In this document: one piece after another, positions 6,006 through 63,621 of the stretch
Position numbering within the stretch: the first letter of the stretch is position 1
Layout of the letters: every line of letters begins with the position of its first letter
Assembly: GCF_900209925.1 (NCBI RefSeq)
Contig: NZ_LT907978.1
Coordinates: forward strand, 1,113,219 to 1,177,218
Length of the DNA stretch: 64,000 nucleotides
Origin: Anaerobutyricum hallii
GTDB lineage: Bacteria > Bacillota > Clostridia > Lachnospirales > Lachnospiraceae
Reading direction: 5' to 3'
Position numbers and translations under genes: made by a program
The notes under the pieces: generated by a model
Databases searched by the model: none
Seen by the model: only the letters and a program-made list of their open reading frames with translations
Told to the model about the DNA's origin: nothing

Positions 6006-6017
6006 TTACTGATTTAT

Positions 6018-6695
6018 AGTTTACGAAAAAAGAAACAATACCATATCCCATCTGCTCTGTAGTCGCTGTGTTTAAGATGTTTATCCGCATCTTAAACCCG
6101 CTCCGAAGCCGCATCTGGGATATGGTATTGTTTCTTTTTTCTGTCTACTATAAATCAGCAGTTGGTGAGAAGGGGGATTCTACAGAATGTTATGGCTTTT
6201 TATGGAATTAAATTCTAAAGGGTTGACATTTAAATTGTTGTGTATATTTGGAATTTAGTAATATCAGATGCGTGACAACTTCACTTCTACATGCCATCCC
6301 ACAACAAGAAATTTTTCTCTTCTGGAGATTTTATCTGAATTGTAAGGAAAGTATGGTAAAGAAAAGAGAATTTTTATAAGCTTGATTTTGTTCCGTCGCG
6401 CTAAACGCTTTATTTTGTCTCAAAACACAAGGGGATTCTCCCAAAATCTACGCTTTCTATTCAAATAGAAACACCCAGAAGAAATGCGTCAATCCGTTAG
6501 ACTTTAATTTCCCAAGAATCCATAACCTTCTGGAGATTCCCCATCCTTACCAACTGTGGATTTAGATAGTCAGAAAAAAGAAATATTGCCCTATCCCAGA
6601 TGCGGCTTGGGAGTGTGTTTAAGATGCGGTTGAGCATCTTAAACGCAGCGACTACAGAGCAGATGGGATAGGGCAATATTTCTTTTTTCGTCTAC
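6018..6695. repeat. Composite palindromic element C1 (two class I hairpins, inverted)
   Basis: Left hairpin 6018-6148 and right hairpin 6565-6695 are reverse complements of the same class I element. The core CATATCCCATCTGCTCTGTA and partner strand GCTCCGAAGCCGCATCTGGG are conserved. The interior also carries inverted arms: about 6150-6235 matches the reverse complement of about 6508-6568. The outer ends are GACGAAAAAAG-like and CTTTTTTCGTC. It fills the whole gap between the convergent gldA and sbcC genes and holds no credible gene. Both strands end in a T run after a stem, so bidirectional termination is plausible. Confidence 0.85.
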
Positions 6696-6716
6696 ACGAA
6701 ATCTACAAAATGAATA

Positions 6717-9700
6717 TTAGGAATATTCTAATGTAATCTGGCTGCCTTTTTGTGATAGATCTGATGGAGTGACAAGGAGCTTTACGGGAACTCTTGTCTG
6801 AATGGCCTCTACATGACTGATGATGCCAATACTTCTCTTTTTGGATTGAAGCTGTTCTAAACTATTCATAACAGTGTCTAACAGATCGTCATCTAAACTT
6901 CCGAATCCCTCATCTAAGAAGAAAAATTCAAGTGGTGCAGCTCCATTAAGCTGGATGGAGGAAGAAAGCGCTAATGCTAATGCGAGGGATGTAATAAACA
7001 TTTCTCCGCCGGAAAGAGTATCGGAAGGGCGTATGGCACCGCCGTTCTTATTATCCCGTATAATAAATTCAGCGGATTCGTTAATTTCGAGAGTGTAGTT
7101 TCCACCAGATATCTTTGAGAGAATGACGGAAGCTTCTCTGGCGATATAGGCAAGCTTTGCCTGGGCCACATATTCAATGAAAGCGTTTCCCTTGAAAAGC
7201 TGTTCTAATTCTTTTATCATATCTTTTTTATGTGTTTCTTTTTCCCATTGTTCTTCTAATTTTTGCTTTTCAGTGAGTCTTTCTGTCATCTCCTGAATCT
7301 GATGGTCTAAAAGGAGAAGGGAAGAAGTTAGAGTATTAATTTGGTTTCTGGCAGAGTCCCGTTCTTCTTTTTGTCTGCGCCAGTCTTCTTCTTCAATATG
7401 ACGATTTCCAAGCTTATTTTTTAAATAAAGAATTTGTTCTTCGGTTTTTCTTGCAGAAGTATAGTAGGTGTCAATTTCGTTGTGAAGTTGATTTATTTGT
7501 ATTTCTTCCATGTAGTAACATTCAGGCTGTTCCTCTTCTTTAAAACCGAGCATATTTTTTTGGTTTTGATAAAGCTGCGTCATTTGCTTTAAATGTGTAT
7601 GTGAAGAAGCGGCAGTGCTTTCGCAGGAGCCAAGTTCTTCTCGTTTTTGCTGCAGTTCTTTTTGTTTGTTTTGGTAGACTTTTTCTGCTTTGGAAAAACA
7701 AGTTTTGATATTTTCCTGTTTTTCTTTGACCTTATTTAATGCCAGAGGAAAATCCATATCGAAAGAGAACTGTTTTGGAATTTTTTCGGTTTGTTCTGCA
7801 ATTACTTTTTTGCAGTTATCAATGGTTGCAGTGAGGGATGAACTTTCATTTTCCAAAGATATAATCTGGGAAGAAAGACTATCTTTCTCAGAAAGGAGGA
7901 TTTCTAAAGAAAGGCGTTTTTCTTTTAAAGCTTTTTCTTGTTTTTGATGATGTTCTTCCCTATTTCGAAGGTTTTTAAGAGCAATAGAAAAATTTTCGAT
8001 GTTATTTTCTTTTCGAAGAGAAAATATTTTTTCTACATAGTTTTGGAGGGTAGCGTGCTGTTCTTTCAGGAGTGTGTTCTGCTCTGTATACTGGTTTTCC
8101 TGCTGTTGAAGGTGTCCTTTTGCCTGTAAATATTCAGCATGCTGTCTGGAAATGGCAGAATAATCCGGTACGATAGGGGGATTATTCGGAGTTTTTTTCT
8201 GTAGATCAGGGGCAGAAATCATATCAGAGAGATCGTTTTGGGTAGTGATTTCCAGAGCCTCTTTTAGATTTGGGAGTTGTGTATTTAGAGAGGCAAATTC
8301 TTTTTCAATCTGCATGATTCTATTCTGCAATTGCTGTATATTTTTTTCTAGATTTTTTTGCGTTTCTTCGAGATCTTTCAACGAAAATGGGGAAGATTCT
8401 GTTGGCAGATCATGTTTTTCATAAGGAATACCGCAGACGGGACAGACCACGCCTTCTTGTAATTCTTCGCGTAAAAGCTGAGCCATATGATTTTGCTGCA
8501 ATAATTTTTGCTGTTGCTTGTTTTGAATTTCTTTCTCTCTAAAATCAGTTAATTTTTCGGTAAGATCAGAATGTTGTTTTTCTAAATAAGAAAGTCGATG
8601 GGAAAGTTGTATATAGCTGTATTCTAATTGCTTTTTTTTGAGAGCAAAGGCTTCTTTTTCTGTTATGATCTTTGCTTTTAAGTCAGATAACGCTTCTGAA
8701 TTTGTTGTATAGTTCTGATGCTTTTCCCGATAGGTTTCTTCCATGATATTTCCCTGTTCTAAAAGCGCTTTTTTTTCAGCAGTGATTTTGTCTGCATCCA
8801 GTTCCACTTCTATGTGTTCAATCTGTTTTCGAATGTCTTCTTCTTTTTTTAATTGGCTTTGCTGTTTTTCTTTTAAAGGAGACAATGTTTTTAAAAGTTC
8901 CTGGTTTTGCCTTTCGTAATCTTTTTGTGATTTAGACCAGGATTGTATTGTGTTGATAGTGGATAGAGAGTTTTCTAATAATTGCTCTTCTTTTTGAAGG
9001 GCAGGGAGAGTTTCTTTTTGTGATAGATGGACTTCATCATATGCTTTTTTTGCTGCTTCAAAAGCAACGTGAAGAGAATCTACTTCTTTTTGAATATGCT
9101 GCAATCTTTTTTCTGCTTCTTCACAAATGCTTTTTGTCTGTGAGACCTGATCAGAAAAAGAACGAAGCTGATTGGCCTTTTTTGCAGTATCAAGCTGTTT
9201 TTCCTTTTGTTTTATGGAAGAAAGTGTCTTTTCATTTTCTTTTTTTTGTTCTTCTAGGGGAGAAAGTTCCTGCTGTAAGGAGAAAAGTTCATTTGTTTCT
9301 TCAAAGTTTTTTTCTAAAACAGTGAGCTGTTCAGAGAGTGTGGCACACTGTTTAGTATTTTCTTTTTTTTCTTTTTTCAATGAAGAAAGCTTCTGGGAAG
9401 AGACATCTTCATATCCCTTTTTTTCTCCGGAAAGAGTACTTAAAAGTAAATCTTGTTTTTGCCTTGCGCGGGCAATTTTACCGGTAAGTTCTATTCCGTA
9501 TTTTTCAAGGTGAAAAATACGCTGGAGCATAACGCGCCGTTCTTTATTTTTCAGACGGAGAAATTCACTGAACTGCCCCTGCGGAAGAACGACAGTCCTC
9601 ATAAAGTCTTCACTTGTAAGTCCAAGAAGACGGATACATTCATTTGTAACTTCTGTAGGTTTGTCGGCTAAAACAGTTTCGGTATCACCTTCATACAAGA

Positions 9701-10034
9701 TAAGACGTCCGGTTGTATTTCTTACTGTAGAAACGCTATTTCCTGTGTGATAGCGAAAAGAACGTTCTGCTAAGTATTTGCGTGTCTTGTCTGTTGTGAT
9801 GGAAAAAAGAAAGGAAACGTTAGCTTTTTTTTTGTTGGTATTGATAAAGTTTTTAGTATCGCGGGGGAGTTTTGCATATAAGGCAAGAGTCATCGCATCT
9901 AAAATGCTGGACTTTCCGCTTCCGGTAGGACCAAAAATTCCGAAAAGTCCCTGCGAAGTCAGTGTTTCAAAATCAATGATCTGTTCTTCTCGGTAACTAT
10001 TAATGCCGGTTAGTTTTAATTGAAGTGGTCTCAT
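6717..10034 (-). CDS. sbcC: Exonuclease SbcC (Rad50-like SMC ATPase subunit)
   Basis: ATPase subunit of the SbcCD nuclease that opens DNA hairpins and processes double-strand ends. The 1105 residues show Walker A GPTGSGKSS at residues 35-43, long coiled coil arms, a zinc-hook CPVC near residue 530, the ABC signature LSGGEMF near residue 1007 and Walker B FFFLDEGFGSLD near residue 1040. sbcD ends directly before the ATG, and GGAGG within the sbcD end sits 8 nt upstream, so the two are translated as a pair. The protein is relevant here because SbcCD destroys long palindromes, which abound in this window. Confidence 0.95.
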   Translation of the reverse strand: MRPLQLKLTGINSYREEQIIDFETLTSQGLFGIFGPTGSGKSSILDAMTLALYAKLPRDTKNFINTNKKKANVSFLFSITTDKTRKYLAERSFRYHTGNSVSTVRNTTGRLILYEGDTETVLADKPTEVTNECIRLLGLTSEDFMRTVVLPQGQFSEFLRLKNKERRVMLQRIFHLEKYGIELTGKIARARQKQDLLLSTLSGEKKGYEDVSSQKLSSLKKEKKENTKQCATLSEQLTVLEKNFEETNELFSLQQELSPLEEQKKENEKTLSSIKQKEKQLDTAKKANQLRSFSDQVSQTKSICEEAEKRLQHIQKEVDSLHVAFEAAKKAYDEVHLSQKETLPALQKEEQLLENSLSTINTIQSWSKSQKDYERQNQELLKTLSPLKEKQQSQLKKEEDIRKQIEHIEVELDADKITAEKKALLEQGNIMEETYREKHQNYTTNSEALSDLKAKIITEKEAFALKKKQLEYSYIQLSHRLSYLEKQHSDLTEKLTDFREKEIQNKQQQKLLQQNHMAQLLREELQEGVVCPVCGIPYEKHDLPTESSPFSLKDLEETQKNLEKNIQQLQNRIMQIEKEFASLNTQLPNLKEALEITTQNDLSDMISAPDLQKKTPNNPPIVPDYSAISRQHAEYLQAKGHLQQQENQYTEQNTLLKEQHATLQNYVEKIFSLRKENNIENFSIALKNLRNREEHHQKQEKALKEKRLSLEILLSEKDSLSSQIISLENESSSLTATIDNCKKVIAEQTEKIPKQFSFDMDFPLALNKVKEKQENIKTCFSKAEKVYQNKQKELQQKREELGSCESTAASSHTHLKQMTQLYQNQKNMLGFKEEEQPECYYMEEIQINQLHNEIDTYYTSARKTEEQILYLKNKLGNRHIEEEDWRRQKEERDSARNQINTLTSSLLLLDHQIQEMTERLTEKQKLEEQWEKETHKKDMIKELEQLFKGNAFIEYVAQAKLAYIAREASVILSKISGGNYTLEINESAEFIIRDNKNGGAIRPSDTLSGGEMFITSLALALALSSSIQLNGAAPLEFFFLDEGFGSLDDDLLDTVMNSLEQLQSKKRSIGIISHVEAIQTRVPVKLLVTPSDLSQKGSQITLEYS

Positions 10035-15115: not shown

Positions 15116-16291
15116 ATGAAAGAATTAGAGTTAAAATATGGATGTAACCCAAATCAGAAACCATCCCGGATTTATATGGAAGAGGGGGAACTCCCTATTC
15201 AGGTACTGAACGGAAAACCAGGTTATATTAACTTTTTAGATGCTTTTAATGGCTGGCAGCTTGTAAGCGAATTAAAAAAAGCAACGGGGCTTCCTGCTGC
15301 AACTTCTTTTAAACATGTATCTCCAGCCGGAGCAGCAGTAGGTCTTCCTCTTAGCGATACACTGGCTAAAATCTACTGGGTAGATGACCTTGGAGAATTA
15401 TCTCCTCTTGCCTGTGCTTATGCAAGAGCCAGAGGAGCGGACCGTATGTCTTCCTACGGTGATTTTATCGCATTATCCGATGTATGTGATGTTTCTACAG
15501 CCAACATGATCAAAAGAGAAGTATCTGACGGTGTGATCGCTCCAGGATATGAACCAGAAGCACTTGAGATTTTAAAATCTAAAAAAAGAGGGAACTACAA
15601 TGTAATTCAGATCGATCCAGCCTACATTCCGGCACCGATCGAGAAAAAACAGGTATTTGGAATCACTTTCGAGCAGGGAAGAAATGAATTAAATATCGAT
15701 GATAAGTTCTTTGATAATATCGTTACAGAGAATAAAGAACTGACAGAAGAAGCGAAGAGAGATTTGGCTATTTCCATGATTACTTTAAAATATACACAGT
15801 CTAACTCTGTATGTTATGTAAAAGATGGACAGGCGATTGGTATTGGAGCAGGTCAGCAGTCCAGAATCCACTGTACACGTCTTGCAGGACAGAAAGCAGA
15901 TAACTGGTGGCTTAGACAGTCCCCTCAGGTAATGGGACTTCAGTTCAAAGATGAGATTCGTCGTGCAGATAGAGACAATGCGATCGACATCTACATGGGA
16001 GATGAATACATGGATGTACTCGCAGACGGTGTATGGGAAAATACTTTCAAAGTAAAACCGGAAGTATTTACAAGAGAAGAAAAGAGAGCATGGCTTGATA
16101 AACTTACAGATGTAGCATTAGGCTCTGATGCTTTCTTCCCGTTTGGTGATAATATCGAACGTGCACATAAGAGTGGTGTAAAATACATTGCACAGCCAGG
16201 AGGATCTATCCGCGATGACAATGTAATCGAAACATGTGATAAATACGGAATCGAAATGTCATTCACAGGAATTCGCTTATTCCACCACTAA
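15116..16291 (+). CDS. purH: Stand-alone AICAR transformylase (PurH C-terminal-type)
   Basis: Transfers a formyl group from 10-formyltetrahydrofolate to AICAR, giving FAICAR. At 391 residues it holds only the transformylase part and lacks the N-terminal MGS-like cyclohydrolase domain of the usual 510-residue PurH. Family motifs are ELKYGCNPNQKPS at residue 4, AATSFKHVSPAGAAVG near 61, KYTQSNSVCYVKDGQAIGIG near 223, AGQQSRIHCTRLAG near 244 and the C-terminal AQPGGSIRDD near 366, including the catalytic Lys-His of SFKHVSPAG. The missing cyclohydrolase is provided by the gene at 14144. Confidence 0.93.
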   Translation: MKELELKYGCNPNQKPSRIYMEEGELPIQVLNGKPGYINFLDAFNGWQLVSELKKATGLPAATSFKHVSPAGAAVGLPLSDTLAKIYWVDDLGELSPLACAYARARGADRMSSYGDFIALSDVCDVSTANMIKREVSDGVIAPGYEPEALEILKSKKRGNYNVIQIDPAYIPAPIEKKQVFGITFEQGRNELNIDDKFFDNIVTENKELTEEAKRDLAISMITLKYTQSNSVCYVKDGQAIGIGAGQQSRIHCTRLAGQKADNWWLRQSPQVMGLQFKDEIRRADRDNAIDIYMGDEYMDVLADGVWENTFKVKPEVFTREEKRAWLDKLTDVALGSDAFFPFGDNIERAHKSGVKYIAQPGGSIRDDNVIETCDKYGIEMSFTGIRLFHH

Positions 16292-16310
16292 AATATGAAT
16301 CTGTAGATTT

Positions 16311-16885
16311 CGTACAGACGAAAAAAGAAATACTGCCATATCCCATCTGCTCTGTAGTCGCTGCGTTTAAGATGCTCAACTGCATCTTAAACACGCTCCG
16401 AAGCCGCATCTGGGATATGGCAGTATTTCTTTTTTCTGGCTATCTAAATCCACAGTTTGTAAGGGTGGGGAATCTCCAGAAGGTTATGGATTCTTGGGGA
16501 GTTAAAGTCTAAAGGGTTGACGCATTTCTTCTGGAGGTTTCCATTTGAATAGAAAGTGTAGATTTTTGGAGAATCCCCTTGTGTTTTGAGGGAAAATAGA
16601 GCGTTTAGCACGACGGAGTAAAATCAAGCTTATAAAAATTCTCTTTTCTTTACTGTACATTTCTTACAATTTGAATGTCAATCCTTTTGAATTTGATTTC
16701 TCGGAAAGTTATAACCTTTTGGAGAATCCCCATTCTCATCAACTGTAGATTTAGAGTAATCAGAAAAAAGAAAAATCAGCCTATCCCAGATGCGGCTTGG
16801 GAGCGTATTTAAGATGCGGATGAGCATCTTAAATACAGCGACTACAGAGCAGATGGGATAGGCTGGTTTTTCTTTTTTCGTCTAC
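16311..16885. repeat. Composite palindromic element C2 (two class I hairpins, inverted)
   Basis: Left hairpin 16311-16443, right hairpin 16754-16885. The interior (16444-16753) shares long stretches with C1 but in the opposite orientation: for example the AAGCTTATAAAAATTCTC block at about 16626 is the reverse complement of the C1 block near 6373. The inner arms 16445-16515 and 16660-16750 are mutually inverted. It fills the gap between the convergent purH and beta-helix genes. No gene is seen inside. Confidence 0.85.
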
Positions 16886-16909
16886 ACGAAATCTAAAAAT
16901 CAGGAGTTG

Positions 16910-18097
16910 TTACCATTTTTTTGTTTTGTTTTTTGAAACCTGCTTTTTCTTTGCAGAAATCACGCGGATAGCATTTCTTTTACCGCTTCTGGCATAGGCT
17001 TTATTTTTCTTAACGATTACGTTGCCGAATTTCTTTGATGTGTGGGAGAATACAAAGATTCCCTGTCTGCCGCCTTTTACGATATTGTTTTCAATGACAA
17101 CTTTATTTTTAATGCTTGTTTTTGGAGAAGAACCTTTCTGATAAGCAACAGCGAGTCCTACGGAGTAGGAATTACGTTTTAAAGGTGTTTTTGTTGTTAC
17201 GCGGCAATTTTTTACTGTGGCGCTTTTTGTATTGAAAAGAGCGAGTGCTTCTGCAGACTTTCCAGTAATATTGCAGTTCTCTATTGTAATATTAGAGTGG
17301 TAATTTCCAGCTTTTCTGTATTTTGCTTCGCTGCCTGGGAAGCTTGCGCAGATTCCTCTGGCTCCGCTGACAATACAGTTCGTTACGCTGATATTTTTGC
17401 TTGGGGTACCGTTACAGAGCTTTGGGCTTAAACGGTAAAGACCAGGAGCTGTTTTTGGTGTGGCAAGGTCGATCTGGAGCTGTTCTTCTACACATTTTTT
17501 TGGACATTTGCCCTGTGGGATTAATTTGCATCCATTAATGGAAACACCGTTGCATGCGATCAATTCAATACCATGTCCGGTGTAATTGCAATAGACGGTA
17601 GCATCATTGATAGAAATATTAGAAGCATAGGAAATTCGCATCATTGTTCCTTTTAATCCAGAGGAAGATGAATTTTTCCATACACCTCCGTTAATGGTAA
17701 GGTTTTTAAAATTATCATAGGATGCTGCAGTTGGGTCGTTTATAATTACGCCGCTTCCGGATGTGATCGTATGGTCTCCGGCATTGATTGTTGTGTTATT
17801 GCCCGGGCGTAAATAGGTATCGATGGAAATATCATTATTGATATTTATAGTTTTAGGTTCATTTCCTTCTATCAAATAGTTTAAAGCGCGGCGATTTCCG
17901 GCAGCACTTCCTGTTGGAATGAAATCATAAATTGCAGGAGAGTCTTGATAAGCGATTACCTTATGCTGGTAAGTTATTTTTTTTCGAGAAGCTTTTTTTG
18001 CATTTTTGGCATAAGCAGTGTTTCCACAGAAACAAAATAATCCTGTAATGATAGTAAGAGTGAAAGTGATAAATAATAGTTGTTTAATTTTTTTCAT
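16910..18097 (-). CDS. Secreted right-handed beta-helix protein (pectate-lyase-like fold)
   Basis: The 395-residue protein has a signal peptide (KKIKQLLFITFTLTIITGLF, cleavage after the AYA near residue 30). The body is a run of parallel beta-helix repeats such as NLTINGGVWKNS, NISINDATVYCN, GVSINGCKLIP, NISVTNCIVSG, NITIENCNITG, SATVKNCRVTT and KVVIENNIVKGG. This fold serves polysaccharide lyases, hydrolases and adhesins; no catalytic set could be assigned. The C-terminus is strongly basic. Start at 18097 is chosen because GGAGA lies 6 nt upstream; 18109 is an in-frame alternative. Confidence 0.7.
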   Translation of the reverse strand: MKKIKQLLFITFTLTIITGLFCFCGNTAYAKNAKKASRKKITYQHKVIAYQDSPAIYDFIPTGSAAGNRRALNYLIEGNEPKTININNDISIDTYLRPGNNTTINAGDHTITSGSGVIINDPTAASYDNFKNLTINGGVWKNSSSSGLKGTMMRISYASNISINDATVYCNYTGHGIELIACNGVSINGCKLIPQGKCPKKCVEEQLQIDLATPKTAPGLYRLSPKLCNGTPSKNISVTNCIVSGARGICASFPGSEAKYRKAGNYHSNITIENCNITGKSAEALALFNTKSATVKNCRVTTKTPLKRNSYSVGLAVAYQKGSSPKTSIKNKVVIENNIVKGGRQGIFVFSHTSKKFGNVIVKKNKAYARSGKRNAIRVISAKKKQVSKNKTKKW

Positions 18098-18142
18098 AAA
18101 TTTCTCCATATTTTATAACGTATTCTCAAAATCTTTCTGTGA

Positions 18143-19444: not shown

Positions 19445-19470
19445 AAATAAATCCTCACTTTATGTAAATT

Positions 19471-19531
19471 TATCTCAGTCGAGAAGGCTCCCACCTATTT
19501 CAGGTGGTGAGTGACAGCGACTCGACTTGAA
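19471..19531. repeat. 61-bp hairpin repeat, copy 1
   Basis: The outer stem AGTCGAG / CTCGACT and an inner stem around CCACC / GGTGG form a branched hairpin. A second copy with about four base differences lies at 31622-31682. The copies share exact ends (TATCTCAGTCGAG and CTCGACTTGAA). It sits between tyrA and aroA. The central CTCCCACC...GGTGG(C/T)GAG part recalls the start of the 181-bp elements at 43871 and 59998. Confidence 0.75.
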
Positions 19532-27134: not shown

Positions 27135-27152
27135 TTCTGAACTGTAGATTTC

Positions 27153-27655
27153 GTATAGACGAAAAAAGAAAAACTGCCATATCCCATCTGCTCTGTAGTC
27201 GCTGTGATTAAGATGCTAAACCGCATCTTAATCACGCTCCGAAGCCGCATCTGGGATATGGCAGTTTTTCTTTTTTCTGTCTACTCTAAATCCATAGTTT
27301 GCAAGAGTGGGGATGTTCCAGAAGGTTATGACTTTCCGAGAAATTAAATTCAAAAGGATTGACATTCAAATCGCTGTATATATTTGGAAATTAGTTGTAT
27401 CAGATGCGTGATAACTTCACTTCTACATGACATCCCACGACAAAAAAGTTCTCTTCTGGAGTTTTTATCTGAATAAAAATCGTAGATTTCTGGACATCCC
27501 CATTCTCACCAACTGTAGATTTACAGTACTCAGAAAAAAGAAATCATCCCCTATCCCAGATGCGGCTTGGGAGCGTATTTAAGATGCGGATGAGCATCTT
27601 AAATACAGCGACTACAGAGCAGATGGGATAGGGGATGATTTCTTTTTTCGTCTAC
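27153..27655. repeat. Composite palindromic element C3 (two class I hairpins, inverted)
   Basis: Left hairpin 27153-27284, right hairpin 27524-27655. The interior is shorter than in C1 and C2 (about 240 bp), and words such as GACATTCAAAT, CAGATGCGTGA and CTTCACTTCTACATG are shared with C1 near 6225-6290. It lies between lysC and the dCMP deaminase gene, which point the same way; this is the only fully visible site that is not between convergent genes. Confidence 0.85.
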
Positions 27656-27736
27656 CTGAAATCTACAAATCAGGATTGTTTTATAAATATTTTTGTGTTA
27701 TGATTAAAGAAAATATCGAGGACAGGAGAGTAAGCG

Positions 27737-31537: not shown

Positions 31538-31622
31538 CTGTAGCAGATGGGAAATTAGATACAGTTAAAAGTTTAAGTACATTTTAATTGTATGAATATC
31601 ATATCTGCTACAGGGGATTTTT
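31538..31622 (+). terminator. Possible terminator with long loop
   Basis: CTGTAGCAGAT (31538-31548) pairs with ATCTGCTACAG (31603-31613), followed by GGGGATTTTTAT. The loop is about 54 nt. Confidence 0.45.
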
Positions 31623-31682
31623 ATCTCAGTCGAGAAGACTCCCACTTCTTTCAGGTGGTGAGTGACAGCGGCTCGACTTGAA
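31622..31682. repeat. 61-bp hairpin repeat, copy 2
   Basis: Nearly identical to 19471-19531 (about four base differences), with the same ends and the same AGTCGAG / CTCGACT outer stem. It lies in the gap between the SH3-like gene and the first tRNA-Leu. Beyond it, 31683-31769 is A/T-rich with nothing recognised. Confidence 0.75.
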
Positions 31683-31829: not shown

Positions 31830-31914
31830 GCAGTTGTGGCGGAATTGGCATACGCGCTAGACTAAGGATCTAGTCCGGGCTGACTGGGTACGGGTTCAAG
31901 TCCCGTCAACTGCA
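31830..31914 (+). tRNA. tRNA-Leu (anticodon AAG), copy 1
   Basis: An 85-nt type II tRNA. The acceptor arms GCAGTTG / CAACTGC pair, the anticodon stem CTAGA / TCTAG encloses CTAAGGA giving anticodon AAG (leucine, CUU), a long variable arm follows, and the T arm is ACGGG-TTCAAGT-CCCGT. The discriminator is A and no CCA is encoded. Confidence 0.92.
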
Positions 31915-32054: not shown

Positions 32055-32139
32055 GCAGTTGTGGCGGAATTGGCATACGCGCTAGACTAAGGATCTAGTC
32101 CGGGCTGACTGGGTACGGGTTCAAGTCCCGTCAACTGCA
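32055..32139 (+). tRNA. tRNA-Leu (anticodon AAG), copy 2
   Basis: Identical in all 85 nt to the copy at 31830. It has its own promoter and terminator, so the two are separate transcription units rather than one tandem transcript. Confidence 0.92.
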
Positions 32140-42984: not shown

Positions 42985-43003
42985 TTTAGCATAATTGGCT
43001 GAA

Positions 43004-43139
43004 TAGACGAAAATAAAAAAGACTAATAATAGCACCTGTGACTTTAGTCGTGGCGTGTTGAATGTTCGCTTTTGCGCTCACATCCAACATTTGCTCCGAG
43101 GTCACATCTGCTATTATTAGTCTTTTTATTTTCTGCCTT
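43004..43139. repeat. Solo palindromic element with class III core
   Basis: The ends GACGAAAATAAAAAAGACTA and TAGTCTTTTTATTTTC pair, followed inward by ATAATAGCA / TGCTATTAT. The core differs from classes I and II (GACTTTAGTCGTGGCGTGT and ACATTTGCTCCGAGGTC). The general plan is the same: variable outer stem, large conserved internal loop, inner stem. It lies between convergent ispH-rpsA and PAP2 genes and probably ends both transcripts. Confidence 0.75.
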
Positions 43140-43864: not shown

Positions 43865-43870
43865 AAGATT

Positions 43871-44051
43871 ATATCAGATGTGAGATGACTCCCACCTCTG
43901 TAGGTGGCGAGCAGCAAATCAGTATCAGTGGGGGAGTCAATCCCCCCATCTGATATAGCCTCCGGCAGGATTGCAGAGATGCGCAGAAGAAGGATGTCAT
44001 GCATTGCATGACGCGCATCTCGCAGCAAGAATGCCGGGGCATTCTTGAATT
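43871..44051 (+). repeat. 181-bp triple-hairpin element in the yerC leader, copy 1
   Basis: Three hairpins in a row. The first has outer stem ATATCAGATG / CATCTGATAT with inner CCACC / GGTGG and GACTCC / GGAGTC pairs. The second is GAGATGCGC / GCGCATCTC with inner GTCATGC / GCATGAC. The third is AAGAATGCC / GGCATTCTT. Copy 2 is at 59998-60177 with about eleven differences, mostly in loops. Both lie just before a ribosome site. It may be a mobile repeat or a cis-acting 5' UTR RNA. Confidence 0.75.
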
Positions 44052-51134: not shown

Positions 51135-51956
51135 TTGATGATGCTAAATAAAAAGACATCTTCAGGTACAGTGCCAGATTACGTAGCACGCTTTGATTAT
51201 GATCAGCAAAAAAATGAAGAAGTATGTTCTATTTATAAAATTAAAAAGAAAGATAATAAAAATTATGCAATTCCAGTAGAAGGAGAACAAAACCAGCCAA
51301 TGTCCATTCTGGATAAGTATGAGATAGTATCTACCGGAAGAATCTTTTATAATTATAACTTCAGTGGAGATATTTTGTATTCAGGCAACGGCCAGAATAC
51401 AAAACCGAATATAGACACAAATAGTAATAGAAGGTTAGTATCTTCTATTCGTCTCTCCGGTATTTCCAAAAAAATTGCCGCAGGCAAAAAGCTTACTTTA
51501 AAAGCGACAGTTTTACCAAACAATGCATCCAATAAAAAGCTAATCTGGAAGTCCAGCAACCCAAAAGTTGCAACGGTAACCCAAAGTGATATAGTCACCC
51601 TGAAAAAGAAAACAGGTGGTAAAAAAGTAACGATTACAGCAACAGCAAAAGATGGCAGTAAAAAATATGCTTCCTGGAAGATTACATCTATGAAAGGCAT
51701 TGTAAAGAAAGTTAAGATTACGGGGAGTAAGCCAATAAAAGCAGGCAAGAAGCTAAAACTAAAAGCCAAAGTAACTGCCACAAAGAAAGCAAATACAAAA
51801 CTTCTCTGGACATCAGGTAATGCAAAATATGCCACCGTAAATGCCAAAGGAATCGTAACAACGAAAAAATCAGCCAAAGGGAAAACTGTAAAAATTACAG
51901 CAATGGCAACTGATGGAAGCGGGAAAAAACATACTGTAAAAATCAAAATAAAATAA
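51135..51956 (+). pseudogene. C-terminal part of the secreted protein, bacterial Ig-like (Big_2) domains
   Basis: The 273-residue frame has no signal peptide and no ribosome site. It carries two Big_2-type domains: ISKKIAAGKKLTLKATVLPN near residue 110, with WKSSNPKVATV, and KAGKKLKLKAKVTATKKANT near 200, with WTSGNAKYATVNAKGIVTT. Such domains are typical of cell-surface proteins and need export, so this frame makes sense only as the continuation of the gene at 50233. A one- or two-base indel in the A-rich stretch around 51087-51096 would join them. Confidence 0.65.
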
Positions 51957-51975
51957 ATTACTATTTAATTCATTA

Positions 51976-52687
51976 GGAAACAGACGAAAAAAGAAATAAT
52001 ACCATATCCCATCTGCTCTGTAGTCACTGTGTTTAAGATGCTTATCCGCATCTTAAACACGCTCCGAAGCCGCATCTGGGATATGGTATTATTTCTTTTT
52101 TCTGTGTTTTGGCTCCAGAAGGAATGAATGCAATAGTCTTTGGGAAGGAAAAGGGGGAGAGGTCAGAAGTTCGTGGCTTATTCTGATGTCATTTTCACTA
52201 TGCCGAATCTTTTTCTGTTTCTGTATTTTGGCTCCAGAAGGAATGAATGTAATAGTCTTTGGGAGGGAAAAGGTGGCAAGGCCAGAAATCTCTTATTGCT
52301 CAAAAGGTATATCGTTCAGAAGATTAGGTACTCTCTTTAACAAACAGTAAAGAGAAAGGGCATTGTCATTTTCCCAAAAAATAAAGTAGTCACCTTTATA
52401 TATAATGATAAATTCATCATGTACAGTGATAGCTGGCGATATCATTTTACCATCATTGACAGCATAGCGGAGACAGTATCAGAATAAGCCACGACCTTCT
52501 GACCTCGCCCCCTTCTCTCCTCAAAAACTATTGCATTCATTCCTTCTGGAGCCAACAAGCAGAAAATAAAAATAATAGACCATTGCAAATGTAATGTGAG
52601 AGCAAGTAAAAATGCCGAACAGGCATTTTCTACGCAGTGATATCTTTACAGTTGCAATGGTCTATTATTTTTATTTTCGTCTGTTTT
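51976..52687. repeat. Composite palindromic element C4 (class I left, class II right)
   Basis: Left hairpin 51976-52110 is class I, right hairpin 52557-52687 is class II. The interior is a further inverted repeat: TTGGCTCCAGAAGGAATGAA at 52109 is complemented by TTCATTCCTTCTGGAGCCAA near 52535, and a partial direct duplication of this arm lies near 52210-52270. The element covers the whole gap between the convergent secreted-protein and amidohydrolase genes. Small open frames within it are palindrome by-products. Confidence 0.85.
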
Positions 52688-56722: not shown

Positions 56723-56742
56723 TTACTATTTCATTTATTTAG

Positions 56743-57176
56743 AGGAAACAGACGAAAAAAAGAAACAATGTCATATCCCATCTGCTCTGTAGTCGCTGTG
56801 TTTAAGATGCTTATCCGCATCTTAAACACGCTCCGAAGCCGCATCTGGGATATGACATTGTTTCTTTTTTTCTGTGTTTTGGCTCCACATGGAATGAATG
56901 AAATAGTCTTTGGGGAGATGAAGGGGGAGAGGTCAGAAGGTCGTGGCTTATTATGATACTGTCTCCACGATGCTGTCAAGATGCCATCGCCAGCGATCAT
57001 TCTCATCTCTCCTAAAAATTATTGAATACATTCCTTCTGGAGCCAACAAACAGAAAATAAAAATAGTAGCCCATTGCAAATGTAATGTGAGAGCAAGTAA
57101 AAATGCCGGACAGGCATTTTCTACGCAGTGATATCTTTACAGTTGCAATGGGCTACTATTTTTATTTTCGTCTGCT
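56743..57176. repeat. Composite palindromic element C5 (class I left, class II right)
   Basis: Left hairpin 56743-56880 is class I, right hairpin 57049-57176 is class II. The interior (168 bp) has inverted arms beginning TTTGGCTCCACATGGAATGA at 56877 and CATTCCTTCTGGAGCCAAC at 57029. C5 is a shortened version of C4, with matching words in both arms. It lies between convergent genes. Confidence 0.85.
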
Positions 57177-59888: not shown

Positions 59889-59997
59889 AGCAAAAATAAC
59901 ATCATAATATATTAAAGAATCAAGGTAATTGCGGTAAAAACAAATAGTTTTTTGCGTTATCTAACTTTCAAGAATGCCCAGGTATTCTTGCTGTAAT

Positions 59998-60177
59998 ATA
60001 TCAGATGTGAGATGACTCCCACCTCTTCAGGTGGCGAGGAGCAAATTAGTATCAGTGGTGGGAGTCAATCCCCCATCTGATATAGCCTCCGGCAGGATTG
60101 CAGAGATGCGCAAAAGAAATATGTCATGCTTTGCATGACGCGCATCTCGCAGCAAGAATGCCGAGGCATTCTTGAAT
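59998..60177 (+). repeat. 181-bp triple-hairpin element upstream of spo0A, copy 2
   Basis: Same plan and near-identical sequence as 43871-44051. Differences fall mostly in loops, for example ATTGC versus TTTGC within the second hairpin. A further hairpin CAAGAAT / ATTCTTG at 59969-59990 just before it resembles the third hairpin of the element, so this copy may be longer. It ends 10 nt before the AGGAGGATG ribosome site of spo0A. Confidence 0.75.
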
Positions 60178-62029: not shown

Positions 62030-63466
62030 ATGAAGAAGATACTATTTGCCAGTGCAGAATGTGATCCGTTTGTAAAGACAGGAGGATTAGGTGCAGTAGT
62101 CGGCTCTCTGCCAAAGCAGTTAAATCATAAAAAATATGATGTAAGGGTTGTTTTACCGGGGTATCATTGTATTGATAAAAAGTGGCGTGATCAGATGGAA
62201 ACGGTTGTGACTTTTCCTATGTATCTTGGCTGGAGAATGCAGACAGTGACCGTAAAAACATTAAGTTATGAAGGAATTATTTATTATTTCATTGAAAATA
62301 ACTTTTATTTTTGCGGAGATTCCCCATATTATGACATGTGGGTAGATATAGAGAAGTTCAGTTATTTTTCTAAAGCAGTACTTGAGATGTTATCCTATCT
62401 TGATTTTGAACCGGATATTATTCATTGCCACGACTGGCAGTCTTCTTTAGTGCCGGTATTTTTAAAAGCATTTTATTGTGCCGACCCATTTTATCGTAAT
62501 ATTAAAACTGTGATGACAATACATAATTTAAAGTTTCAGGGAATTACGGAAATCGACCGTTTAAAAGATATAACCGGTCTTCCTGACGATATGTTTACTT
62601 ACGACAAACTAGAATATAATAATTCGGCAAATCTTTTAAAAGGTGGACTTGTTTTTGCAGATAAGATCACAACAGTAAGTAAAACATATGCGGAGGAGAT
62701 TAAACAGCCAGAATATGGAGAAGGATTAGATAGTGTGCTACAGCATAGAAGTGATGATCTTTGCGGAATTGTCAACGGAATTGATTATGATATCTATAAT
62801 CCTTCTACAGATGAATACATTCCTTGCCATTATGATGATAAAACCTTTGATAAAGGAAAGAAAAAGAATAAAGCATCTCTTCAGGCAAAAACAGGTCTTC
62901 CAAAGAAGAGAACAGCATTTACATTAGGAATTGTTTCAAGATTGACTGAACAGAAAGGCTTTGCACTCTTTTCTTATATGATGGAACGTCTCATGAAGAA
63001 GCCGGTACAGCTTTACGTATTAGGCGATGGGGAAGAGGAATATCGAAATATGTTTCTTTCCTATCAGGAACAGTATCCGGATAAAGTATATGTACAATTA
63101 GACTATACCGATGAAATGGCAAAATACATCTATGCTGGCTGTGATGCGATATTAATGCCATCACGCTTTGAACCATGTGGACTTTGTCAGCTTATGTCCC
63201 TTCGTTACGGAGCAGTTCCGATCATAAGAAAGACAGGAGGTCTTAAAGATACCGTAAGCATCTATAATCCAAAGAGCAAAACAGGAACAGGTTTTGGATT
63301 TACAGATTATAATGCGGAAGCCTTTTTAGATGCAATTCTTGCAGCCTTAGATGTTTATAAAAAGAATCCAGAAGAATGGAAAAACCTTACTGCAAAAGGA
63401 ATGAGGAAAAACTATTCATGGAAAGCATCTTCCAGAAAATACGAAAAATTATATTCTGATTTGTAG
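62030..63466 (+). CDS. glgA: Glycogen synthase (ADP-glucose type, GT5)
   Basis: Adds glucose from ADP-glucose to alpha-1,4-glucan. The 478-residue protein has KKILFASAECDPFVKTGGLG at residue 2 with the KTGGL nucleotide-binding motif, HCHDWQSSLVPVFL near 132, and the C-terminal domain with GIVSRLTEQKGFALF near 302, MPSRFEPCGLCQLMSLRYG near 382 and RKTGGLKDTV near 405. Start at 62030 has GGATGGAG 6 nt upstream; 62018 is an in-frame alternative. Its last codons fall inside the palindrome that follows, so the C-terminus SDL is encoded by the repeat end. Confidence 0.93.
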   Translation: MKKILFASAECDPFVKTGGLGAVVGSLPKQLNHKKYDVRVVLPGYHCIDKKWRDQMETVVTFPMYLGWRMQTVTVKTLSYEGIIYYFIENNFYFCGDSPYYDMWVDIEKFSYFSKAVLEMLSYLDFEPDIIHCHDWQSSLVPVFLKAFYCADPFYRNIKTVMTIHNLKFQGITEIDRLKDITGLPDDMFTYDKLEYNNSANLLKGGLVFADKITTVSKTYAEEIKQPEYGEGLDSVLQHRSDDLCGIVNGIDYDIYNPSTDEYIPCHYDDKTFDKGKKKNKASLQAKTGLPKKRTAFTLGIVSRLTEQKGFALFSYMMERLMKKPVQLYVLGDGEEEYRNMFLSYQEQYPDKVYVQLDYTDEMAKYIYAGCDAILMPSRFEPCGLCQLMSLRYGAVPIIRKTGGLKDTVSIYNPKSKTGTGFGFTDYNAEAFLDAILAALDVYKKNPEEWKNLTAKGMRKNYSWKASSRKYEKLYSDL

Positions 63467-63621
63467 ATTTGATGTAGACGAAAAAAGAAAGAATACCATA
63501 TCCCATCTGCTCTGTAGTCGCTATATTTAAGATGCTCGTCCGCATCTTAAATACAGCGACTACAGAGCAGATGGGATGTATTATTTTTTTCTTTTTTCGT
63601 CTACACCAAATCTACAAATCA
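63456..63621. repeat. Solo palindromic element, class I, almost perfectly self-complementary
   Basis: Unlike the other class I hairpins, both strands of the core carry the CTGCTCTGTAGTCGC version (left) and its exact complement (right), so the usual internal loop is missing. It looks like the left half of a left hairpin joined to the right half of a right hairpin. The palindrome extends to CTGATTTGTAGATTTG and its complement, including the stop codons of both flanking genes. It lies between convergent glgA and rqcH. Confidence 0.85.

Follow-up and report, generated by a model that had tools for sequence, protein, structure and literature searches.

The window, the whole 64,000-nucleotide (64-kb) stretch of DNA analysed here, holds 13 copies of a dispersed family of palindromes of about 140 nt that resemble REP/BIME elements and share a base motif and a core. 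The genome carries some two hundred long hairpins, mostly just 3' of genes. Our preferred account, in which we place about as much confidence as doubt, is that copying at the DNA level keeps the two arms of each hairpin matched, with selection acting on the core, the base and the stem length. What is new is the combination and the scale.

Elements in the window

Twelve of the 13 elements in our own table have a sense gene's stop codon no more than 35 nt away, and the elements often occur as inverted pairs.

170–320, − strand: class II element (bounds approximate)
6006–6147, + strand: class I, after a glycerol dehydrogenase-like gene
6566–6707, − strand: class I, after an sbcC-like gene (bounds approximate)
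16301–16442, + strand: class I, 10 nt 3' of the purH stop
16749–16890, − strand: class I, inverted partner of the preceding element, 20 nt 3' of the stop of gene 16910–18109 (bounds approximate)
27142–27283, + strand: class I, after the aspartate kinase gene
27522–27663, − strand: class I, no sense stop nearby, the sole exception of the 13 (bounds approximate)
42995–43125, + strand: A. hallii-type element with its own stem sequence (bounds approximate)
51967–52108, + strand: class I, after gene 51135–51956
52530–52670, − strand: class II-like, arm variant GACC/GGTC (bounds approximate)
56736–56877, + strand: class I, after an AMP-binding enzyme gene
57020–57165, − strand: class II-like, arm variant GCCC/GGGC (bounds approximate)
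63461–63602, + strand: chimeric copy, both core halves left-type, variable segments unmatched

All eight class I hairpins named in the earlier note are present in the window, as are both of its class II arm variants. The positions it gave lie near the hairpin starts and not at the variable segment (16331–16339 for the hairpin at 16301–16442), its arms AATCAGC/GCTGGTT (16754) pair except for one + strand T-G cell that is an A-C mismatch in the orientation of the hairpin, and its list lacked the chimeric copy at 63461–63602.

An SbcC-like gene (6717–10034, − strand) directly adjoins one inverted hairpin pair. SbcC is a subunit of a nuclease that cuts DNA hairpins, and its place here is probably a coincidence. 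The window also contains another short repeated palindrome (19469–19531 and 31620–31682, 94% alike), which on the minus strand reads AGTCGCTG or AGCCGCTG, with core-like letters; a 181-nt repeat (43870–44050 and 59997–60177, 91% alike) with strong minus-strand folds and without the class I core; and two tRNA genes of equal score (31830–31914 and 32055–32139) in a 149-nt tandem repeat, 90% alike.

Copy number and distribution

The genome that holds the window is a single contig of 3,515,670 bases, and the purH protein of the window shares 99% identity with its counterpart in Anaerobutyricum hallii DSM 3353. The source is a species of Anaerobutyricum close to A. hallii, perhaps A. soehngenii. 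We compared it with a second genome of the genus that appears to be A. hallii, since its purH hairpin matches that of a named A. hallii record. The class I core pattern, with at most three mismatches, occurs at 180 places in the genome (105 forward and 75 reverse; reversed control 0), and a pattern for the right half of the core occurs at 169. Of 158 core matches in the stretches examined, 142 have a left and a right half and ten a single half, while the remaining six rows are three loci counted once on each strand, two of them right/right and one left/left; the 142 class I copies are thus a sample of the 180 places, picked by core sequence alone. Exact core matches number 116 and 128 in the two sister species.

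The class I pattern was found in one of 299 genomes drawn from the family, the source genome itself, and in two of 24 genomes of the genus, where a looser core pattern was likewise found in two of 24. In a smaller family draw the looser pattern matched three of 100 genomes, and the two foreign single matches look like chance because the reversed control gave four. With these patterns, the family draws of 299 and 100 genomes yielded no convincing carrier beyond the source genome. Spread by phage or plasmid was considered and rejected: a phage collection and a plasmid collection contained no match to the element, and IMG/VR contained no exact match of a 20-base class I core.

A search of Rfam at the gathering score matched no hairpin and returned only the two tRNAs of the window. 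A permissive scan gave low-scoring miRNA-type matches, taken as chance, and a known RNA family was accordingly rejected. The names hallii and Lachnospiraceae are absent from the available main text of a paper on RNAs of the human microbiome (PMC8040213), and the available parts of the literature on Anaerobutyricum or Eubacterium hallii offered nothing relevant to such hairpins.

Anatomy of the class I hairpin

The hairpin at 16301–16442 (+ strand) has a predicted folding energy of −71.7 kcal/mol (z −11.3 against 200 shuffles), and the inverted pair region at 16290–16910 one of −315 kcal/mol (z −38 against 20 shuffles). From the outside in, class I consists of a lead, often with CTGATTTG, the base AGACGAA/TTCTG, the outer stem, an unequal core with TAGTCGCT on its left side and GCTCCGAAGCC on its right, and an inner stem-loop.

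16316–16322, + strand: left base motif AGACGAA, opposite TTCTG at the other foot
16331–16339, + strand: variable mid-stem, left arm
16346–16362, + strand: conserved unequal core, left strand
16363–16394, + strand: inner stem-loop
16395–16410, + strand: conserved unequal core, right strand
16417–16425, + strand: variable mid-stem, right arm, complementing 16331–16339

At the right foot, TTC is the end of a T tract and CTG lies at 16436–16438. The base pairs −21 and −22 keep a mismatch in about 113 of the 142 class I copies. To our knowledge, the class I core fits none of the K-turn, bulged-G and hammerhead motifs.

Class II and the A. hallii family have a base and a core related to those of class I, and different stems. 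The distance from core to base (left/right) could be measured in 127 of 139 class I copies, and is 35/29 in 102 of these and 36/30 in 14. In class II it is 37/30 for 11 of the 13 copies measured, out of 32, and in the A. hallii family 36/29 for 15 of the 22 measured, out of 51. The measurement used exact motifs, which the other copies lack. Common to all families are the base motif, a near-constant stem length and the conserved unequal core.

The arms vary and remain paired

The earlier note had proposed that pairing is kept while sequence is free; this was borne out in three families and two species, and the covariation among aligned copies on which it had staked the claim was strong in the sample of copies analysed. 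Pairs −1 to −10 are Watson-Crick in 132–141 of the 142 class I copies, each with two to four Watson-Crick types; pair −9, for example, is TA in 60 copies, AT in 59, CG in 13, GC in 4 and something else in six. Over nine variable class I positions in the 136 copies in register, 40 of 1224 cells (3.3%) are non-Watson-Crick against 35.7% expected with independent arms. For 49 A. hallii copies (one of 50 was omitted for its short core) the covariation score is 0.614 against 0.153 when shuffled, with 0 of 500 shuffles reaching the observed value, and there are 443 two-sided cells against 130.8 when shuffled. In this family 97.5% of outer-stem cells pair, and the inner stem covaries as well, at six of ten pairs.

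When arms were re-dealt among copies, the Watson-Crick fraction fell from 0.916 to 0.803 in class I (136 copies; these totals include two core-proximal mismatched pairs), from 0.964 to 0.797 in class II (30 copies) and from 0.964 to 0.616 in the A. hallii family (50 copies). Every one of pairs 2–21 is Watson-Crick in 23 of the 30 class II copies (shuffle mean 1.2) and in 35 of the 50 A. hallii copies (shuffle mean 1.1); in class I this holds for one of 136 copies because there the interval includes the two conserved-mismatch pairs; without those two, 97 of 136 class I copies are free of mismatches over 27 pairs, and the mismatch-free copies of class II and the A. hallii family number 14 of 30 and 29 of 50. 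The sets of 136, 30 and 50 were drawn from 139, 32 and 51 copies with at least 22 of 45 arm matches, and copies out of register were dropped (3/139, 2/32 and 1/51), so that these sets favour paired arms. Selections made by core alone (the 142 class I copies and the A. hallii listing) give the same pairing picture.

Could the arms match by descent, having been inherited jointly from a few matched masters, with new mutations too young to show? We consider this improbable. Arm haplotypes do recur, with AAGAAATAATACCAT in 21 of 142 class I copies, and several A. hallii copies have blocks in common. Against descent, there are 63 distinct 20-nt left arms in 136 class I copies, 24 in 30 class II and 44 in 50 A. 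hallii copies, and the tails and flanks of the copies have identities of 0.70–0.81, near the 0.66–0.73 of shuffled sequence, so the copies are not young. Sliding the partners, which keeps relatedness, cuts the A. hallii score to 0.072–0.161. Descent would also leave the origin of matched arms in new masters unexplained.

Outer stems show no wobble excess

In RNA, a G-U pair is tolerated far better than an A-C mismatch. We counted 40 G-U and 53 A-C cells in the outer stems, which are counts over copies and not independent events (class I 14/31, class II 10/7 and A. hallii 16/15 for G-U/A-C; this recount omits the two core-proximal class I pairs). As distinct position-and-type events the numbers are 27 and 36. 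A two-to-one G-U excess is rejected at a one-sided p of 2.4e-6, a value that treats the cells as independent, which they are not. A tRNA control gave three G-U and no A-C in 192 cells, and its 16 tRNAs are too few to calibrate the test.

These counts run counter to selection for an RNA stem as the cause, one of the two sources the earlier note had proposed for the pattern. Under such selection the elements would be terminators or 3'-UTR structures that undergo ordinary compensatory changes. Placement and polarity 3' of stop codons, the A/T tract at the class I foot and the strong folds are all as this would have it. It nonetheless seems quite unlikely to us: besides the missing G-U excess, the A. 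hallii inner stem has 53 A-C against two G-U, mostly at one pair, Rfam gave no match at the gathering score and chance-like ones below it, the element went uncalled in a simple terminator scan, and there is no T tract in the A. hallii family.

As G-U is not in excess over A-C, the force that matches the arms seems, as far as sequence can tell, to see DNA pairing, either through arm copying or through selection on a DNA hairpin. In the latter case a protein such as a transposase, recombinase or nucleoid protein would require the stem between base and core to be fully paired and constant in length, and copies without such pairing would be lost or unable to spread. The core-to-base length is near-constant although the stems of the families are unrelated, core and base are conserved, G-U and A-C are equally rare as in DNA pairing, and the elements pair in BIME-like inversion. 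One mismatch in about 29 pairs should, however, hardly matter to so stable a hairpin, and yet the mismatch-free copies counted above are many; moreover, we found no candidate protein, the Y1 transposases being IS200/IS605-like with a TnpB-like neighbour. Overall, we judge selection on a DNA hairpin or cruciform unlikely.

Proposed arm-to-arm copying at the DNA level

The earlier note had also held that such covariation is not expected of copied transposon ends. This was too strong: the elements are dispersed repeats, and according to the available text of PMC8794818 DNA template switching from arm to arm in a quasi-palindrome can yield covariation without selection for pairing. We propose that the nascent strand, folding back on the inner hairpin and core, takes the opposite arm as its template, as in quasipalindrome template switching, so that a change in one arm would be either erased or written into both. 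The unequal core, the motif AGACGAA/TTCTG at the base and a stem length of about 29–30 pairs are conserved, which suggests that these are under selection, and the stem sequence would be free. Because direct conversion events are few, we infer this mechanism from the pattern the arms have left.

Several observations count toward copying. The compensated cells are transversion-rich (ts/tv 129/173, 31/72 and 141/246). The 36/30 class I copies differ from the usual 35/29 by a matched length change in both arms. Between A. hallii copies, left arms have an identity of 0.70 against 0.69 when shuffled, and the core 0.87. Conversion-type events are seen as the two loci with right/right cores and one inverted loop of 140, and one further locus (L178) has lost most of its core with its arms still paired in their own sequence. 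Mismatches rise from the core outward in the A. hallii family (4/500, 18/500 and 30/450) and in class II (5/300, 6/300 and 20/270), a rise that could be fraying.

Other observations count against copying. Class I shows no such outward rise (15/1088, 33/1360 and 15/1224). Chimeric copies with unmatched arms persist (L022, L154, L169 and 63461), and conserved mismatches stand unrepaired at base pairs −21/−22 and at the two core-proximal class I pairs, unpaired in 135 and 133 of 136 copies. Inner A-C mismatches occur in 44 of 49 A. hallii copies and, for class I, in 37 and 23 of 140 copies. Covariation within the A. hallii inner stem likewise speaks against copying. Mean arm mismatches in copies with damaged and other cores are 0.70 and 0.37 in class I, 1.67 and 0.88 in class II and 1.00 and 1.06 in the A. 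hallii family, and Spearman correlations of arm mismatches with core damage (0.11, 0.04 and 0.03) are not significant.

A more specific form of arm copying, which we offer tentatively and consider less probable than copying in general, is that the inner hairpin and unequal core are a built-in primer for arm resynthesis. Such a fold-back primer would account for a matched outer stem beside a primer that is not itself matched. It would keep some two hundred gene-end stems matched, of fixed length and free in sequence, and the covariation would come from DNA copying and not from selection for RNA pairing.

Placement after genes and turnover of sites

Among 132 class I copies with a classed gene context, 66 lie between tandem, 60 between convergent and six between divergent genes, the orientations resting on our own ORF calls; overlap with an ORF call occurs in nine of 142. 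In 99 of the 132 cases the gene on the 5' side runs toward the element, and in 92 of these the foot of the stem lies 3–38 nt after the stop, whereas of the 33 genes pointing away four are within 40 nt. A second ORF call placed a sense stop near the 5' side of the element in 100 of 138 cases for class I, 17 of 31 for class II and 37 of 45 for the A. hallii family. This placement and polarity suggest that the element, if transcribed, would form the 3' end of the gene's RNA, as a terminator or mRNA-end hairpin.

Comparison of 35 A. hallii loci with the source genome gave long alignments for 20 (17 distinct regions) and short repeat matches only for two. At six aligned sites we compared the elements directly: purH, ask and three others hold elements of different stem families in the two species, and at the glgA site both species have class I. 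The comparison between species also took in two more class I sites. The same gene ends carry different stem families, and thus element sites outlast their stem sequence, which may come about by divergence in place, by replacement or by repeated insertion. At the ask site no element was seen by eye in any of 14 other genus members with a readable gene end (four of 18 loci were unreadable). In one small lineage the elements seem to have colonised gene ends.

Individual sites offer further observations. The glgA site (63461–63602; L121 1180–1620) looks as if a single ancestral inverted pair had suffered a different loss in each genome, apparently a loop-to-loop deletion in the source genome and loss of the first hairpin in A. 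hallii. The tails at L221 850–1300 and L123 1000–1640 contain a second hairpin with similar flanks in both species and a different paired stem. Downstream of purH in Ca. A. avicola (L042 7170–7900) there are other strong nested hairpins without the class I core.

Implications for covariation analysis

Covariation is widely read as proof of functional RNA structure. The elements form a natural set of more than 100 hairpins in each of two sister species with strong covariation and no wobble excess, and they are a caution that DNA-level palindromes may be mistaken for RNAs in covariation screens. With this set one can also test directly if template switching is able to maintain pairing in long stems, a point that the available text of a 2022 study (PMC8794818) left less clear.

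Comparison with known systems

The elements recall several known systems. Integron attC sites keep structure above sequence and have conserved unpaired bases. The elements likewise keep structure more than sequence and have conserved non-pairing bases, but they follow ordinary chromosomal genes in both orientations and form no cassette array. Like intrinsic terminators, which are G+C-rich stems with a T tract behind them, they lie 3' of stop codons, and class I has, by eye, an A tract and a T tract; unlike terminators they are very long and have a conserved core, and the other families have no T tract.

The likeness to REP/BIME sequences is closer. As described for the GTAG and CGTC super-families in the accessible parts of PMC3733652, where we found no mention of Firmicutes, these are many dispersed intergenic palindromes, often in inverted pairs and mostly 3' of genes, between convergent or tandem genes. 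REP sequences have an unpaired GTAG or CGTC tag at one end; by letters only, the likeness may extend to the 5' foot of the elements, where AGACG is CGTC on the other strand (a CGTC-like tetramer within TTCGTCT) and is often preceded by GTAG. A REP unit is given there as 20–40 bp with a stem of 5–13 bp, whereas the elements here are about 140 nt with a 29–30-pair stem, an unequal core and a free stem sequence. Because size and stem length miss that definition, we do not file them as REP, REP/BIME-like as they are in location and pairing. Mobilisation by a RAYT, the dedicated transposase of the GTAG kind, was tried as an explanation and rejected. The genome has seven Y1_Tnp matches, and no RAYT was seen in the six loci read. 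Each of the six has a long neighbouring ORF, which by eye resembles TnpB in five. Two of the loci have a family hairpin no more than about 1.5 kb away, but it does not flank the transposase.

In the behaviour of their arms, the elements are closest to hairpins maintained by template switching, for which the accessible text of PMC8794818 describes arm copying that gives matched double changes, loop inversions and perfect stems, and calls its own evidence for stem maintenance circumstantial. The available literature on template switching with REP offered nothing relevant. The PMC8794818 study treats RNA genes, whereas the hairpins described here are a repeat family with many long stems per genome.
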